In this document: in pieces, positions 25,869 through 32,658 of the stretch
How positions within the stretch are numbered: the stretch's first letter is position 1
How the letters are laid out: every line of letters begins with the position of its first letter
Origin: Spirochaetaceae bacterium
GTDB lineage: Bacteria > Spirochaetota > Spirochaetia > B11-G9
Reading direction: 5' to 3'
NCBI GenBank assembly: GCA_030600745.1
Contig: JAUVLL010000003.1
Span: 1 to 32,658 of the forward strand
DNA length: 32,658 bases
Made by a program: the position numbers and the translations under genes
The notes under the pieces: generated by a model
Databases searched by the model: none
Told to the model about the DNA's origin: nothing
The model's input: only the letters and a program-made list of their open reading frames with translations

Positions 25869-26585
25869 CTATACTATCCTCACTTCAATATTTTCATTCA
25901 GATAATCCCGCCACTTTTTCCAGTCAGGATATACTCTGGAAAGTAGAGCATAAAACCTTGAGCTATGATTATGCTCTTTTGTATGGCACAGTTCATGGAA
26001 GATAACATAATCAATGCATACTTTAGGTGCAGAAACAAGTTTTGGATTCAAAAAAATCTTTCCCTCCCTTGTACAACTTCCCCAGCGCTTCGCCATTATC
26101 TTTACCTGCCAGACAGGTTCCTTTTTAATGCCTATTACTGCAGAAACTTTTATACATTCCATAAATCGCTCTTTAAATATCTGCAGGCTCCTCTCTCGAA
26201 ACCAATTTAGAAGAAGCTTCTCCCTTTGTTCAATGGAATGAGATTCTGGTGCAGAAAGATGAAATCTTCCATTTTTCAGCTTAACATAAGGCTTTCCTGC
26301 AAGAACCTTAAGCCTGTACTGCTTACCCAGATATCGGAATGTCTCACCTGTTTGATATTTCGGCTTTGGCTGAGACGGCTGTAATCGTGAAAACTCCAGT
26401 CGTTTCTTATATATCCATGGAGCACGCTTCTTGACTTTCTGCAGAACTTCATTAAGATCCACATACTCCGGAGCTACAACTTCTATATGCTGATCCGGAT
26501 AAACATGGATTGCAAGTGTTTTTCTATTTCTTCTATCAAGACTGAATTCAATATCTGTTGTACCGTATTGTATTTTATAATTCAC
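25869..26585 (-). CDS. YgjP-like/M48-type metallopeptidase (DUF45 family)
   Basis: VIFHELCHTKEHNHSSRFYALLSRVYPDWKKWRDYL (HExxH), KRWGSCTREGKIFLNPKLV. ORF opens at ATG 26627; GTG 26585 (V-NYKIQYGTTDIEFSLDRRNRKTLAIHV) gives the family-like N-terminus and an 11-nt overlap with hsdR. Confidence 0.87.
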   Translation of the reverse strand: MNYKIQYGTTDIEFSLDRRNRKTLAIHVYPDQHIEVVAPEYVDLNEVLQKVKKRAPWIYKKRLEFSRLQPSQPKPKYQTGETFRYLGKQYRLKVLAGKPYVKLKNGRFHLSAPESHSIEQREKLLLNWFRERSLQIFKERFMECIKVSAVIGIKKEPVWQVKIMAKRWGSCTREGKIFLNPKLVSAPKVCIDYVIFHELCHTKEHNHSSRFYALLSRVYPDWKKWRDYLNENIEVRIV

Positions 26586-29500
26586 GGCTCTTTGCAATCT
26601 CCAGTGTTTGCTCAATGATTCTATCAATTACCTCATAACTCCACTTAAGATCAAAATTGCCTTTAATTTGAAGTAAATAATCTTCAATATCATTGAACAT
26701 TTGATTATGAACACCCGGATCATGAACCCAGTCTCTTTTTTCCAGGTTTTTAATTATTGTATCTATTTTTACTGCTGCATCAGCTCCAAGGTAAGCAGGA
26801 GCAGTCTCTTTAACCATACCATCAGGAAGTTCTTCCAATACTACGCGATAATATGGACGTGCCGATTCATGTTGCTTTAACTTATCCGGTATATCAGAAG
26901 AACCTTTTGTTCTCATTTCATCCATAGCCTCTCTAATACGGTTAAGATAATTTGCGTCTGATAGTCTTTTAGCTCTATGTTCAGCAATTGCTGCATTTAT
27001 TATTTCTGATAATTTTTTATAGAGTAATGGATCTTCCTGCATTTTATCATGAATAGTTTTTCTCATTCTTGCTGCTATTGTATCTGCTTTAGCTGCATCT
27101 CCTTCAACCCCTCCAATTTCCCGCTCAAAATCTTCTATATTAAACAAATCAACAGGTTCAACAATTTGTTTTACAATCTTTGCTCCAATGTATTTATTCA
27201 CCATGTTCCTGATTTGTACTTCATAGGATGAATAATCTACAGTCTCACCATATCGCTGTTTTACCGTATTTCTTAGTGAAAGAAACATTTTTAGATCATC
27301 TTTATATCGTTGGATAGACGCAAGTGAAGTGTCCTCGTGAAACCTGGCGTTTCCAAGAGCCAATCTCAATGTATTAGCAAATACCCGAAGTGAATCATAA
27401 AATTTCTGTCGTGTATCTTCAGGTTCCAGATGAAGCTGCATCGCCTCAGTGTCTGATTTATTTTTGACAGAATTAAATACTTCCCGGACATTAGTATGAT
27501 ATTGAGCCAGTTTTCCTATTTCTTCGAGAACATTTGTAATTATTCCATCAACATCTTCCCTGTCAAAACCTTCCTCTTCAAGAGCTTTGTAGAGTTCAAT
27601 GGCATCATTAAGCTGACCGAAAACACCTCGATAATCGATAATAAGCCCATATTCTTTACCGTCATACAGTCGATTCACCCTGGCGATAGCCTGCAGAATA
27701 TTGTGTTCTTTTAAGCGCTTATCTATGTAGAGTACTGCATTTCTAGGAGCATCAAATCCGGTGAGAAGCTTATCGATTACTATAATAATTCCCGGTTCAT
27801 CGGATTTTTTAAATCGTTCAATAAGCGTATCCTGATATACTTTCGCTGAGCCGAACTGATCCATCATGGATTTCCAGAATCTTTGGACTTCCGGAATATC
27901 GGCTTCATCAACCTCAGAATGATCTTCCCTTGTGTCAGGAGGGGACATGATGACTGCTGTTGAAAGCCCTCCAAAATCATCAAAATACTTTTTATATTTT
28001 ATAGCTTCCTGCCTGGATGATACTGCAAACTGACCCTTTAGCCCTGAGTTTTTATAATCAGTTGTAAAGTGCTGGATGATATCATATGCAATTTCCTGAA
28101 GACGTTCTTCTGATTTTGTTAACTCTTCTTCCCGGCGGAATTTCTTCTTCAAATCTATTTTTTGATCTTCTGTTAAATCTTTTGCAATACGTTCAAACCA
28201 CTTATCAATCTGCTTCTTATCTCCTCTAAGCTCACTCATTCTCCCTTCATATATAAGGCGTGTAACTGCACCATCGGTAACGGCCTGATTCATTGAATAA
28301 GAATGGATGAATCCACCAAATTTAGCTGCTGTACTTTTTTCTTTCTTTAATAATGGAGTTCCTGTAAAGCCAATATAACAGGCGTTTGGGAATACTCTCT
28401 TCATACTGGCATTGGCAACACCGTATTGTGACCGGTGGCTTTCATCTACCAGGACAAAGATATTCCTGCTTTCCGATTTAAGTTTGTTTTTACGCAAACC
28501 AGCTTCAAACTTATCTATAATTGTAGTTATGATATTAGCTTTATTCTGTTCAATAAGACGAAAAAGATTTTCGCCGCTGGTTGCTTTTTTAACTTCTTTA
28601 CCACAGTTTTTGAAAGTCTTATAAATCTGATCATCAAGGTCCACTCTGTCAGTTACAAGAATGACCTTTGGATCAATAATTGATGGATTAAGGCTGATTG
28701 CTTTTGCCAGTAATACCATGGTAATCGACTTGCCCGAACCTGTTGTATGCCAGATAACACCTCCTGGACGTAGAGAATCCCCTGCTACATTGGTAATCCT
28801 GATAATTGTATCCTTAATGGCAAAATACTGCTGATATCTTGGAACTTTCTTTATCTTATTATCATAAACAACATAACTATGTGTAATTTCAAGGAGCCTC
28901 TTGGGCTTAAGAAGGCTGAATATTGTCTTATCCTGTACTGATGGTATTCTTTTCCCTGCACTCATGATTTCAAGCATTTTATTCTTCTGCCAGTCATCCC
29001 GTTCATTGAATAGATATTGAATATTTTCGCCATCAAGCTTCTTATTAATTGAATGATTCAGCCTCTTTTTGTCCTCATTACTATAGTCCTCTTTCCAGAC
29101 AGACCAGAATTTTAGAGGAGTTCCGGCTGTCCCATACATCGCCTGATTTTGGCTTAGAGAAAAAAGAAGCTGAGAATAAACAAACAGATGAGGTATTTCA
29201 TCTGCAGATTGGTTTCGAATATGCTGGCTTATGCCTTCTTTAATGGAATTCTTTTTATCCGGTCTTTTGCATTCTATTACGGCCAGAGGTATTCCATTTA
29301 CAAAGACTATAATATCAGGACGACGAGTCTGGTTGCTATGACGTCTTTCAATAATAAATTCATCGCAAACGTGAAAAACATTTTCCTGGGGATTCTCCCA
29401 ATCGATGTACTTCAGGGAAAAACTTCTGGTGTACCCTGCAATAGTCTGCTCAAAGCTTTTGCCAAGAGTTATAAGATCATACACTTGTTCATTTGTGGTT

Positions 29501-29769
29501 ATAAGGCTGTCAAATGGAATATCCCTAAGCTCCTGAACAGCCTTTTCAATATTGGCATCGGAGAATGTATGTGTCTTACCTTTAAATGTGAAAGAGTTAA
29601 TTTTATGCAGCTGTTTCTTAAGTATTGTATCCAGAACCGGTTGACTGAATTTATCGCTGCGAAGCTTCCTGGCAACCGATGGCGGGATATATTCATAACC
29701 CAGATTTATGAGCTGATGGAGAGCTGGAATTAGTGAGATAAAGTCTTCCTGGTATTCTGATACAGACAT
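26575..29769 (-). CDS. hsdR: Type I restriction-modification system restriction (R) subunit
   Basis: Nuclease motif RRPDIIVFVNGIPLAVIECKRPD, Walker A WHTTGSGKSITMVLLAKAI, VDESHRSQYG, FTGTPL, LLTGFDAP, QAIARVNRLY; 1064 aa. Confidence 0.96.
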   Translation of the reverse strand: MSVSEYQEDFISLIPALHQLINLGYEYIPPSVARKLRSDKFSQPVLDTILKKQLHKINSFTFKGKTHTFSDANIEKAVQELRDIPFDSLITTNEQVYDLITLGKSFEQTIAGYTRSFSLKYIDWENPQENVFHVCDEFIIERRHSNQTRRPDIIVFVNGIPLAVIECKRPDKKNSIKEGISQHIRNQSADEIPHLFVYSQLLFSLSQNQAMYGTAGTPLKFWSVWKEDYSNEDKKRLNHSINKKLDGENIQYLFNERDDWQKNKMLEIMSAGKRIPSVQDKTIFSLLKPKRLLEITHSYVVYDNKIKKVPRYQQYFAIKDTIIRITNVAGDSLRPGGVIWHTTGSGKSITMVLLAKAISLNPSIIDPKVILVTDRVDLDDQIYKTFKNCGKEVKKATSGENLFRLIEQNKANIITTIIDKFEAGLRKNKLKSESRNIFVLVDESHRSQYGVANASMKRVFPNACYIGFTGTPLLKKEKSTAAKFGGFIHSYSMNQAVTDGAVTRLIYEGRMSELRGDKKQIDKWFERIAKDLTEDQKIDLKKKFRREEELTKSEERLQEIAYDIIQHFTTDYKNSGLKGQFAVSSRQEAIKYKKYFDDFGGLSTAVIMSPPDTREDHSEVDEADIPEVQRFWKSMMDQFGSAKVYQDTLIERFKKSDEPGIIIVIDKLLTGFDAPRNAVLYIDKRLKEHNILQAIARVNRLYDGKEYGLIIDYRGVFGQLNDAIELYKALEEEGFDREDVDGIITNVLEEIGKLAQYHTNVREVFNSVKNKSDTEAMQLHLEPEDTRQKFYDSLRVFANTLRLALGNARFHEDTSLASIQRYKDDLKMFLSLRNTVKQRYGETVDYSSYEVQIRNMVNKYIGAKIVKQIVEPVDLFNIEDFEREIGGVEGDAAKADTIAARMRKTIHDKMQEDPLLYKKLSEIINAAIAEHRAKRLSDANYLNRIREAMDEMRTKGSSDIPDKLKQHESARPYYRVVLEELPDGMVKETAPAYLGADAAVKIDTIIKNLEKRDWVHDPGVHNQMFNDIEDYLLQIKGNFDLKWSYEVIDRIIEQTLEIAKSREL

Positions 29770-29844: not shown

Positions 29845-30333
29845 TTATTCCGGAAGTAAATCATAAAAATCTTCCAGGATTTTTGAACTTATTTCTCTGT
29901 TTGTTTCTGATATCTTGTTTGCGATTGTTTTTGCTCTTCTTTTAGATATTAAACCGGTTTCAACCAATTCAGCTATTAACTTCAATCCTCTAACCACTTC
30001 AATCCCGTTATTCAAGCATTCTTTACGTAGTTTACTGTCATTTGTTGCACAAATCCAGTTATTTTTATGCGCTAGAATGAAACAAACTGTATCCTGCAGA
30101 GAACAACCCTGTAAGGTTTCTCCAGCTTTCGCCAACACTTCAATAGGGACAGGAATAACTGTTATTCCAAACTCAGACGCTTCCATCTCACTTAGTTGAT
30201 TGACCTCAGCTAAAATAATATCTGGTACAATAAATTTCGAATAAATACTTACTTTTTCCAGTACTTGTTTATCAGCATTACAATAATCTATCAAAATATT
30301 TGCATCACATATTATAATTTTCTCTTTCCTCAA
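29845..30333 (-). CDS. PIN-domain-like protein (putative ribonuclease, toxin-like)
   Basis: IIICDANILIDYCNAD, ILAEVNQL, CSLQDTVCFILAHKNNWICATNDSKLRKECLNNGIEVVRGLKLIAEL; ATGA overlap with the upstream XRE-ImmA/IrrE gene. Confidence 0.78.
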   Translation of the reverse strand: MRKEKIIICDANILIDYCNADKQVLEKVSIYSKFIVPDIILAEVNQLSEMEASEFGITVIPVPIEVLAKAGETLQGCSLQDTVCFILAHKNNWICATNDSKLRKECLNNGIEVVRGLKLIAELVETGLISKRRAKTIANKISETNREISSKILEDFYDLLPE

Positions 30334-31454
30334 AGGCAGACCTTCCAGCTGTTATTAAGCTCACGTATTTCGTCTAATGACAGCTTTAAAATTTCAGCAG
30401 CTCTATTCAGAGAGATCTCTTCTTTTTCATAAGCTTCTCTTACCATCTTATACAGTCTGTCTTCCACGAAATCATATGAAGATAAAGGATCCGGTTCTTT
30501 TTCTTTGTCTTCTGCTAATGACAAAGGCTCATAATGGTTCTTCAGTGATATCTTATACTTTTTCTTAACAGCCTGAGTAAATTGTGGATATACTTGTCTC
30601 TGGTCTAAATCAAAGTGAGAAATAAATCTATAGAGTACAGTTTTATAACTTACACGGTATTTTCTTTTAATATGAAGAACAGCATCCACCCAATGTAATC
30701 CTTTGGATTCATCCCATTCACGCAGGAAACCTTCTTCTGGCATAAGAAAATAGCCGGCAAAGATGTTGGCTTCTTTTTCTTCGCTATCCATTTCATCTTT
30801 TTCTTTTTGATCATAGGAATCAGAATGTATTAGCAGGTGTCCCAACTCATGAACAACAGTAAATATTCGCCTTTCAATGCTAATTACTTCCGATATATTT
30901 ACTGCAATAGCAGGACCGCCATCCTGCTGTCCTATAGAGAAGCCAAAGAAATTTTTTAAACCAAAGGCAGATAAATGGAATTTAATACCCCACTTTTCCA
31001 GAAGACCAATAACATCAGTTACCGGTTCCATGGTCCCAAGACCGATCATTTTTCTTAATTTATTAGCAACCTTTACAGGATCTTTTTCAGCAATTTCAGG
31101 AAAATCCAGAGGTGCCATTTTTAATAATTCCTGTAAATAATTATAATCCTTCAGCCATTGATCCACATTATATATTATCTGTTCTCTGAGGTTATCCTCT
31201 TGTTTAGTAAGTCTCCGGTTAGTTCGAAAGCGAAGAGACTTAAATTCCGGTGGATCAGCAATAATATCCTTGATATCGACATCCAGAACTTTCGCAAACC
31301 GGATTAAATTTGCAGATTTCGGTTGCGATTTGCTGTTTTCTATGTTGCTGTAGGCAACACGGGATAAACCGCATTTATCAGCCATATCCTGCATATTAAG
31401 ATTATTGGCTTTTCGCAGGCGGTGCAGGTTGGCAGCTATATGTTCAATAGCCAT
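30330..31454 (-). CDS. XRE-family HTH protein fused to ImmA/IrrE (M78) metallopeptidase domain
   Basis: N-terminal HTH RLRKANNLNMQDMADKCGLSRVAYSNIENSKSQPKSANLIRFAKVLDV; TVVHELGHLLIHS (HExxH); NIFAGYFLMPEEGF. Confidence 0.92.
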   Translation of the reverse strand: MAIEHIAANLHRLRKANNLNMQDMADKCGLSRVAYSNIENSKSQPKSANLIRFAKVLDVDIKDIIADPPEFKSLRFRTNRRLTKQEDNLREQIIYNVDQWLKDYNYLQELLKMAPLDFPEIAEKDPVKVANKLRKMIGLGTMEPVTDVIGLLEKWGIKFHLSAFGLKNFFGFSIGQQDGGPAIAVNISEVISIERRIFTVVHELGHLLIHSDSYDQKEKDEMDSEEKEANIFAGYFLMPEEGFLREWDESKGLHWVDAVLHIKRKYRVSYKTVLYRFISHFDLDQRQVYPQFTQAVKKKYKISLKNHYEPLSLAEDKEKEPDPLSSYDFVEDRLYKMVREAYEKEEISLNRAAEILKLSLDEIRELNNSWKVCL

Positions 31455-31543: not shown

Positions 31544-32005
31544 TTATTTATAGATTTCACTCTCAATTTTTCTAATCTGGTGGAGAGTCAGCTTGTGTTT
31601 GTTCTTTTCGAATTGTACGAAAAAGTTTTCCGGTTTATCCATTGATTGGATTAGATTACTTACTGCCTTTGAAGTTAAAGTTCCTTGTTCATAACATTTA
31701 AATGCTAATTCCTCTAATTCAAGTATTTTAGCAAAGGTCTTTTGGTTCGTGCCATATTTTTGTCTGATGGAGATAATCTCCTCAGGAAAGATTATATTCT
31801 CAAGTTTACGATATTCGTTATAACCGTTTGTCAAAGTAAAGCCCATTTGATCCATAGTTGCAAAGTCTTTTCCACAAACAGTACAAAGAGAGAACTCTGC
31901 TTCGGATTCAATTTCTATTCCCCGAATGATATTTTTTTCCATTTTTTTTATAATTTCAATTTCTCGAAATTCTTCGCAATATGGACACATACCGTTCATG
32001 ATCAT
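31544..32005 (-). CDS. MqsA-like protein (YgiT-type zinc finger plus HTH), antitoxin-like
   Basis: MCPYCEEF...CTVCGKDF, then PEEIISIRQKYGTNQKTFAKILELEELAFKCYEQGTLTSKAVSNLIQSMDKPENF. Confidence 0.75.
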   Translation of the reverse strand: MIMNGMCPYCEEFREIEIIKKMEKNIIRGIEIESEAEFSLCTVCGKDFATMDQMGFTLTNGYNEYRKLENIIFPEEIISIRQKYGTNQKTFAKILELEELAFKCYEQGTLTSKAVSNLIQSMDKPENFFVQFEKNKHKLTLHQIRKIESEIYK

Positions 32006-32046: not shown

Positions 32047-32364
32047 TTAAATCTCTTCGGGCTTGTTGCGTATCGAAACTGATAACTCACAATTCAACAC
32101 AGATGAGAATTGAGCCAGAGTTTCTATGGAAAAATTAACTTTTTCGTTCAGTACTCTGGATATATATTTACGGGACTTCCCCATCCTCTTTGCCAGTTCT
32201 ACCTGAGAAATATTCTCTTTTTCTAAAACCCACAAAATATCTTCTACTATCCTCCCTCTGGTATAACTTTCAATAAACTCAGGATCTTTCTCAAGCTCCA
32301 GATCCGGAAGGTGCTTAATCTCTTCAAGTGTTTCTGTTGTAGTTCTTTTAACTTTTTCTTTCAT
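32047..32364 (-). CDS. XRE-family helix-turn-helix regulator
   Basis: ISQVELAKRMGKSRKYISRVLNEKVNFSIETLAQFSSVLNCELSVSI. Confidence 0.85.
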   Translation of the reverse strand: MKEKVKRTTTETLEEIKHLPDLELEKDPEFIESYTRGRIVEDILWVLEKENISQVELAKRMGKSRKYISRVLNEKVNFSIETLAQFSSVLNCELSVSIRNKPEEI

Positions 32365-32406
32365 GTGATTGCCTCAGATGGGGAAAAAAAATGGTGCCCC
32401 CAGTTT

Positions 32407-32459
32407 TGATCAGCGACAATTACTTTTCCCGGCCAGGTATTTTTAATTGTCGCTGATCA
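32407..32459. repeat. Perfect 16-bp inverted repeat at the truncation point of the hsdR remnant (possible mobile-element end)
   Basis: TGATCAGCGACAATTA (32407..32422) and TAATTGTCGCTGATCA (32444..32459), 21-nt spacer. Confidence 0.7.
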
Positions 32460-32527
32460 CAGTTTATCGGTAGGTGAATAGTTGGGAAACGTGATATAAA
32501 ATTTTCTCTATATTCTGATACAGACAC
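32420..32527 (-). pseudogene. Truncated second hsdR 5' end (hsdR remnant)
   Basis: GTG frame: VSVSEYRENFISRFPTIHLPINCDQRQLKIPGREK*. First 22 residues align to intact HsdR start MSVSEYQEDFISLIPALHQLIN. A 16-nt exact match TATTCTGATACAGACA is shared by 29753..29768 and 32511..32526. Confidence 0.75.
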
Positions 32528-32538
32528 CTAGTTATTCC

Positions 32539-32658
32539 TTATTTATATTCTATGAATGATATTTTTACTTTGAAATCCATCCTATTTAGATTTGAAACAA
32601 ATCCCTTTAGGTTAATTTTTGAAAATAATGGAATTGTAAAATTTCCATATCTATCCTT
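32539..32658 (-). CDS. 3' end of an unidentified CDS running off right edge
   Basis: Open frame ...KDRYGNFTIPLFSKINLKGFVSNLNRMDFKVKISFIEYK* with stop at 32541..32539, 11 nt before the hsdR-remnant GTG, so operon-like spacing. Confidence 0.5.
   Translation of the reverse strand, partial: KDRYGNFTIPLFSKINLKGFVSNLNRMDFKVKISFIEYK

Follow-up and report, generated by a model that had tools for sequence, protein, structure and literature searches.

Organization of the locus

The window analysed here is a 32,658-nucleotide stretch of a Spirochaetaceae genome (GCA_030600745.1, contig JAUVLL010000003.1, positions 1 to 32,658), and the genes of interest lie toward its right end on the minus strand, where they form part of a type I restriction locus. 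Reading inward from the contig end, the tail of a DUF6119/TIGR04141 gene is followed by a short stump of a second hsdR (hsdR′), which is interrupted by a 53-bp element, and then by a block of six complete genes. The block opens with an XRE-family regulator (32047..32364; HTH_3, E 8e-12), whose protein is 61% identical to its counterpart at the orthologous site of the sister species (G001), followed by an MqsA-family antitoxin-like gene (31544..32005; TIGR03830, E 4e-21) with orthologues next to hsdR in G001 and in G004. Next come a gene for an XRE protein with an ImmA/IrrE (M78) domain (30330..31454) and a PIN-domain gene (29845..30333; PIN_9, E 4e-6) that overlaps its end. The intact hsdR follows (26575..29769; 1064 aa; TIGR00348, E 2e-149, with HSDR_N and SWI2_SNF2 domains), and the last gene encodes a YgjP/SprT-like metallopeptidase (25869..26627; PF01863, E 7e-57). 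This ygjP is the usual gene after hsdR in the subfamily and is also found there in loci L001-L003, L024-L026 and the plasmid loci described below.

The XRE-M78 protein is RmrA-like, that is, of the RosmerTA antitoxin type (RmrA profiles to 7e-35; Peptidase_M78 7e-18, HTH_3 5e-13), and with the overlapping PIN gene it forms a candidate RosmerTA-like pair (29845-31454) inside the restriction locus, in which the PIN gene would act as the toxin. RosmerTA (RmrTA) joins an ImmA-protease antitoxin to varied toxins (PMC10440598). The pair in the window is like it in having an XRE plus ImmA/IrrE protease protein that matches RmrA profiles and a small gene adjoining; it differs in that the partner is a PIN-domain gene and in that the pair is known from sequence alone.

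An hsdR stump interrupted by a 53-bp element

From position 32527 the minus strand reads GTG TCT GTA TCA GAA TAT ... and translates as VSVSEYRENFISRFPTIHLPIN, which faces MSVSEYQEDFISLIPALHQLIN, the N-terminus of the intact HsdR at 29769. The initial annotation had proposed that this stretch is a remnant collinear with the HsdR N-terminus, and the alignments bear this out. An independent repeat finder pairs 32463-32526 with 29705-29768 (64 nt, 70%, spacing 2758), and the 16-nt exact core claimed for the two copies is present as TGTCTGTATCAGAATA. The ungapped identity is 45/64 nt, while 200 dinucleotide-preserving shuffles, compared over the whole window on both strands, gave a mean of 32.9 and a maximum of 39. 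A profile built from five HsdR N-termini has only two matches in the whole genome, the intact hsdR (E 4e-38) and 32459-32527 (E 0.002). When the same profile was run against 347 genomes of the class, almost every strong match fell at the beginning of a long hsdR frame. The motif thus retrieves HsdR N-termini, and the concern that it might be a widespread unrelated leader falls away. The first part of the stump (32460..32527) thus comprises the GTG start, codons 1-22 and the first two bases of codon 23, and it ends in one copy of the hexamer AAACTG (32460-32465).

The initial annotation also had the similarity stop abruptly at an inverted repeat, which is correct for a continuous alignment, but the repeat is a 53-bp insertion beyond which the homology resumes and runs to ~32370. 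The element (32407..32459) has 16-bp perfect inverted repeats of IS21 type and the sequence TGATCAGCGACAATTA-21 nt-TAATTGTCGCTGATCA, and AAACTG stands on both of its flanks, the second copy of this 6-bp target duplication being at 32401..32406. If the element and one AAACTG are removed, the second part of the stump (32370..32400; codons 23-34, WGHHFFSPSEA) continues in frame with the first across the empty site, and the frame reads VSVSEYRENFISRFPTIHLPINWGHHFFSPSEAIT followed by a stop; its counterparts are LINLGYEYIPPSVARK in the intact hsdR and LINLGYKYISPTQAEE in a gene of the same genus. Scored with an HMM from which the remnant had been left out, the first part by itself reaches 19.0 bits, and joining the second part raises this to 32.0 bits. 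A score of 32.0 was reached by 0 of 2000 shuffles of the second part and by 3 of 5000 random peptides from the window, the latter drawn from a window that includes hsdR itself, not separated out. From these scores HsdR homology therefore extends to ~32370, a few bases short of where XRE starts, and with the insert closed the stump measures ~99 nt, or about 34 codons. The breakpoint, as judged from the joined alignment, is accordingly shown to lie at the XRE start codon and not at the inverted repeat. A 53-bp element inside a pseudogene can, in other words, mask the true end of homology.

The element is best explained as a non-autonomous element with IS21-type ends, as its perfect terminal inverted repeats, several copies, target duplication and lack of coding capacity suggest. 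Contigs C100 and C107 of the same genome carry copies at 95-96% identity, and a clean target duplication is seen at one of the three full-length 53-bp copies, the one in the stump; a further match from that search, on contig C228, proved spurious. Its end, TGATCA[G/A]CGACAATTA, differs at one position from an end that lies next to IstA/IstB in G017:C308, where the other end matches incompletely and sub-terminal repeats accompany the element-like end. Sub-terminal repeats are a known feature of IS21 ends. The element thus resembles IS21-family elements and bacterial MITEs in its terminal sequence, its 6-bp duplication and its several copies, and differs in being only 53 bp long and having no gene. 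An intact IS21 with exactly these ends was not found in the same genome, whose IS21 on contig C296 is without them. Because the element is multi-copy, has a target duplication and has homology continuing beyond it, we rejected the inverted repeat as a terminator or recombination breakpoint.

Two single arms of the element lie inverted and 1.4 kb apart on contig C36 of the same genome (L055, 2477-3890). They enclose what look by eye like a cysteine-desulfurase-like gene, apparently deleted internally, and a small DUF2442-type gene, with no transposase seen, so that C36 was rejected as a full-length parent; these arms may be either a cassette with such ends or two half elements. A 52-bp relative occurs in a genome of another family (L083, G009:C60, 2726-2777), between ATACTT and TTACTT, an imperfect 6-bp duplication.

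The junction of stump and XRE gene is tight: XRE begins at the stump end, and its ATG overlaps the TGA of the stump frame. Such an ATGA overlap raises the idea that the stump is a functional leader, since a 35-codon frame ending at the XRE start could, before the insertion, have served XRE translation, and TCTGAGGCAATCACATG stands before XRE, where GAGG precedes the ATG by seven bases. We regard this as very improbable, because the frame is now broken by a 59-bp insertion with a stop inside the element, protein constraint has been lost (see below), and the sequence upstream of XRE in G001 is different. At 32361-32380, the GAGG ahead of XRE falls within former hsdR codons, and the XRE ribosome-binding site may come from the stump.

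Decay and age of the stump

With about 34 codons left, the stump lacks the HSDR_N nuclease and helicase domains, and neither the window nor the rest of the genome yielded a second hsdR body. By its reading frame and domain content it is a fragment, a truncated pseudogene copy, and not an HsdR. The divergence beyond the exact core had been described as silent, and this proved wrong: over codons 2-22 (21 codons only) the stump differs from the intact hsdR by 8 non-synonymous and 4 synonymous codon changes, and L13, I14, A16 and L17, which are invariant in five aligned HsdR starts, are lost in the stump. Over the same codons the intact hsdR differs mostly silently from its counterparts in G004 (2:7, non-synonymous to synonymous) and G029 (3:11). 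On these counts the stump has lost protein-level constraint.

The remnant had further been taken for an older homologous copy and not a recent duplication, and the nucleotide identities agree with this. Over 99 nt the stump is 63% identical to the intact hsdR, while the intact hsdR is 80% identical to the hsdR start of the sister species and 74% to that of G004; a recent duplication is unlikely because the stump is more distant from its neighbour than that neighbour is from its orthologue in another species. An old tandem duplication within one locus, in which an hsdR-ending unit was doubled and a later deletion left only the first 34 codons of the upstream hsdR copy, would account for two hsdR starts in the same orientation 2.76 kb apart, both belonging to the genus-like HsdR group and not to the type of L001. 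At 63% identity, however, such tandem copies must have separated before the species did, or the stump must have decayed very fast, and no second copy of XRE, MqsA or ygjP is seen; we therefore consider an old duplication unlikely. A mosaic origin of the intact hsdR was rejected, as its identity to G004 and G029 runs along the gene without a step near the 5′ end.

The DUF6119 neighbour and intact operons

The gene that enters from the contig end is represented by its last 39 codons (32542..32658), which match positions 492-524 of the 524 in PF19614 (E 1e-5) and also TIGR04141 (E 5e-5), with scores below the curated cut-offs because only the gene tail is present. Its stop codon lies ~12 nt before the GTG of the stump. 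DUF6119 stands directly before hsdR in five intact loci, one in a Bdellovibrionales MAG (L001) and four on alphaproteobacterial plasmids. The order in L001, whose HsdR is 61% identical, is hsdS′-hsdM-hsdS-DUF6119-hsdR-ygjP, and this order recurs on Mameliella pKUB257, Mesorhizobium pB2-1-8 and Paracoccus albus p3; Actibacterium pNS6001 has hsdS-DUF6119-hsdR-ygjP, its listed genes beginning at hsdS. In all four plasmids DUF6119 and hsdR overlap by a few bases. An hsdR start ~12 nt after DUF6119 is thus what the remains of such an operon should look like, and the earlier proposal that a second hsdR once lay directly behind the right-edge gene is strengthened by the identity of that gene. The window is like these operons in having DUF6119 immediately before an hsdR start and ygjP after hsdR; it differs in that the hsdR behind DUF6119 is a stump, the whole hsdR coming 2.76 kb later.

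DUF6119 occurs in 5 other genomes among the 347 of the class. None of the four loci and one remnant (in G025) read there (L108-L112) has it next to hsdR, so the evidence for this adjacency comes from outside the class. In the literature searched, TIGR04141 is not mentioned, and DUF6119 is mentioned once, in an unrelated wheat paper.

The window's contig breaks off within DUF6119, and on contig C113 an hsdM of the G004 type is truncated at the contig end; the missing genes presumably fall into the C113-C291 gap. Judged by eye, the cut hsdM on C113 (L082, 623-4090) has next to it an hsdS-like gene of half size, a gene of 570 aa that resembles coiled-coil/ATPase genes and an HNH-like gene, which may be a further embedded defence module. 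No contig was found that shares the right end of the window. As this is a MAG-like assembly of 375 contigs and the stump is less than 300 bp away from a contig end, a chimeric end would be one way to produce the arrangement. We give an assembly artefact almost no credence, since the position of DUF6119 ahead of an hsdR start, the target duplication and the in-frame continuation are each biologically sensible on their own, and the terminal 120 bases match no other contig beyond 19 nt.

The orthologous site in the sister species

The orthologous site in G001 lies beside genes for PGDH, NagA and an isomerase, and it contains XRE, a small gene, an MqsA-like gene and an hsdR fragment of 59 codons, with no hsdR stump before XRE. 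This hsdR fragment is a second, independent case of hsdR decay at the site, so the loss of hsdR bodies here is recurrent. At this locus (L051, G001:C228, 5100-7905) a fragment of a REP-associated tyrosine transposase precedes XRE, and the 59-codon hsdR fragment runs into a stretch resembling that transposase fragment and then into part of another, different hsdR-type gene.

Because G001 has XRE, MqsA and an hsdR start at this site without a stump before XRE, it could instead be the DUF6119-hsdR′ side that arrived later, as a foreign hsdS-DUF6119-hsdR′ end that became attached to an XRE-MqsA-...-hsdR locus already resident, and the rarity of DUF6119 in the class fits such an origin. Against this, the genome's own hsdM on C113 is of the G004 type that is usual in the genus, and the stump peptide is nearest to genus genes and not to the DUF6119-carrying L001. 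We hold a foreign DUF6119 side to be possible but doubtful.

Our preferred reading, to which we assign a probability of roughly 0.8, is that an older hsdR once lay directly behind DUF6119/TIGR04141 and was cut off when the locus was rebuilt around the XRE/MqsA/XRE-M78/PIN/hsdR genes, after which its stump decayed; the 53-bp element also entered it. The ancestral type I operon would have been hsdS′-hsdM-hsdS-DUF6119-hsdR-ygjP, and the stump would be the 5′ end of its hsdR, ~34 codons long, the rest having been lost during the rebuilding. The XRE-MqsA-(XRE-M78)-PIN-hsdR-ygjP block would now start at the old cut point, and that this block replaced the old hsdR is plausible. Afterwards the stump would have drifted, its protein no longer under selection. 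The element entered after codon 22, either before or after the truncation, duplicating 6 bp and making the stump look shorter than it is. Both the direction of the rebuilding and its recombination mechanism, which may have been homologous or illegitimate, are what we infer from this arrangement. The core of the initial annotation is supported in this form, and its observation itself is partly confirmed. The stump is a true and well-supported pseudogene scar, ordinary in kind. On the preferred reading it would be a scar of the rebuilding of an anti-phage locus, an ordinary event that is unusually readable here. It would give a before and after of cargo turnover in a type I restriction operon, from the old DUF6119-hsdR to XRE, MqsA and the RosmerTA-like pair before hsdR.

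The variable slot before hsdR

We compared what lies between hsdS and hsdR in some 20 related loci, which were chosen by HsdR or DUF6119 similarity so that their count is not a survey. The slot holds DUF6119, Abi, Fic, DUF3800 with a small gene, a small gene with a Ser/Thr kinase, a HAD hydrolase, Shedu with HAD or DUF3800, SMODS/SLATT/AlbA, Abi_alpha with DUF4062, DUF4917, DUF6880 or an MqsA-containing block. In G004 the gene immediately ahead of hsdR is MqsA, and in an S. meliloti locus hsdS abuts hsdR. Evidently the slot directly upstream of hsdR changes often, and the event in the window was probably an exchange of cargo in this slot. Most of the loci L001, L002, L003, L024-L026, L053, L133-L140 and L167 have a differing, often defence-type gene in the slot, and ygjP follows hsdR wherever the locus extends that far.

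A more general proposal would be that in hsdS′-hsdM-hsdS-[slot]-hsdR-ygjP loci the gap before hsdR is a dedicated site of defence-gene exchange across phyla, operating by recombination in the hsdR 5′ end. We think this distinctly improbable; if true, the stump and the 59-codon hsdR fragment of the sister species would both be scars left by such exchange.

Embedded genes have been described in type I loci before. They include the rlo/mlo ORFs of C. jejuni (Miller et al. 2005, to the extent described in PMC5183652), TgvAB (PMC12409362) and PrrC, which is embedded in EcoprrI (PMC3874165). The locus in the window is like these in having extra, variable and often defence-type genes between hsdS and hsdR, and in varying between strains or species. 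It differs in its cargo, which consists of XRE, MqsA, the RosmerTA-like pair and DUF6119, and in that the old hsdR stump keeps an earlier arrangement readable.
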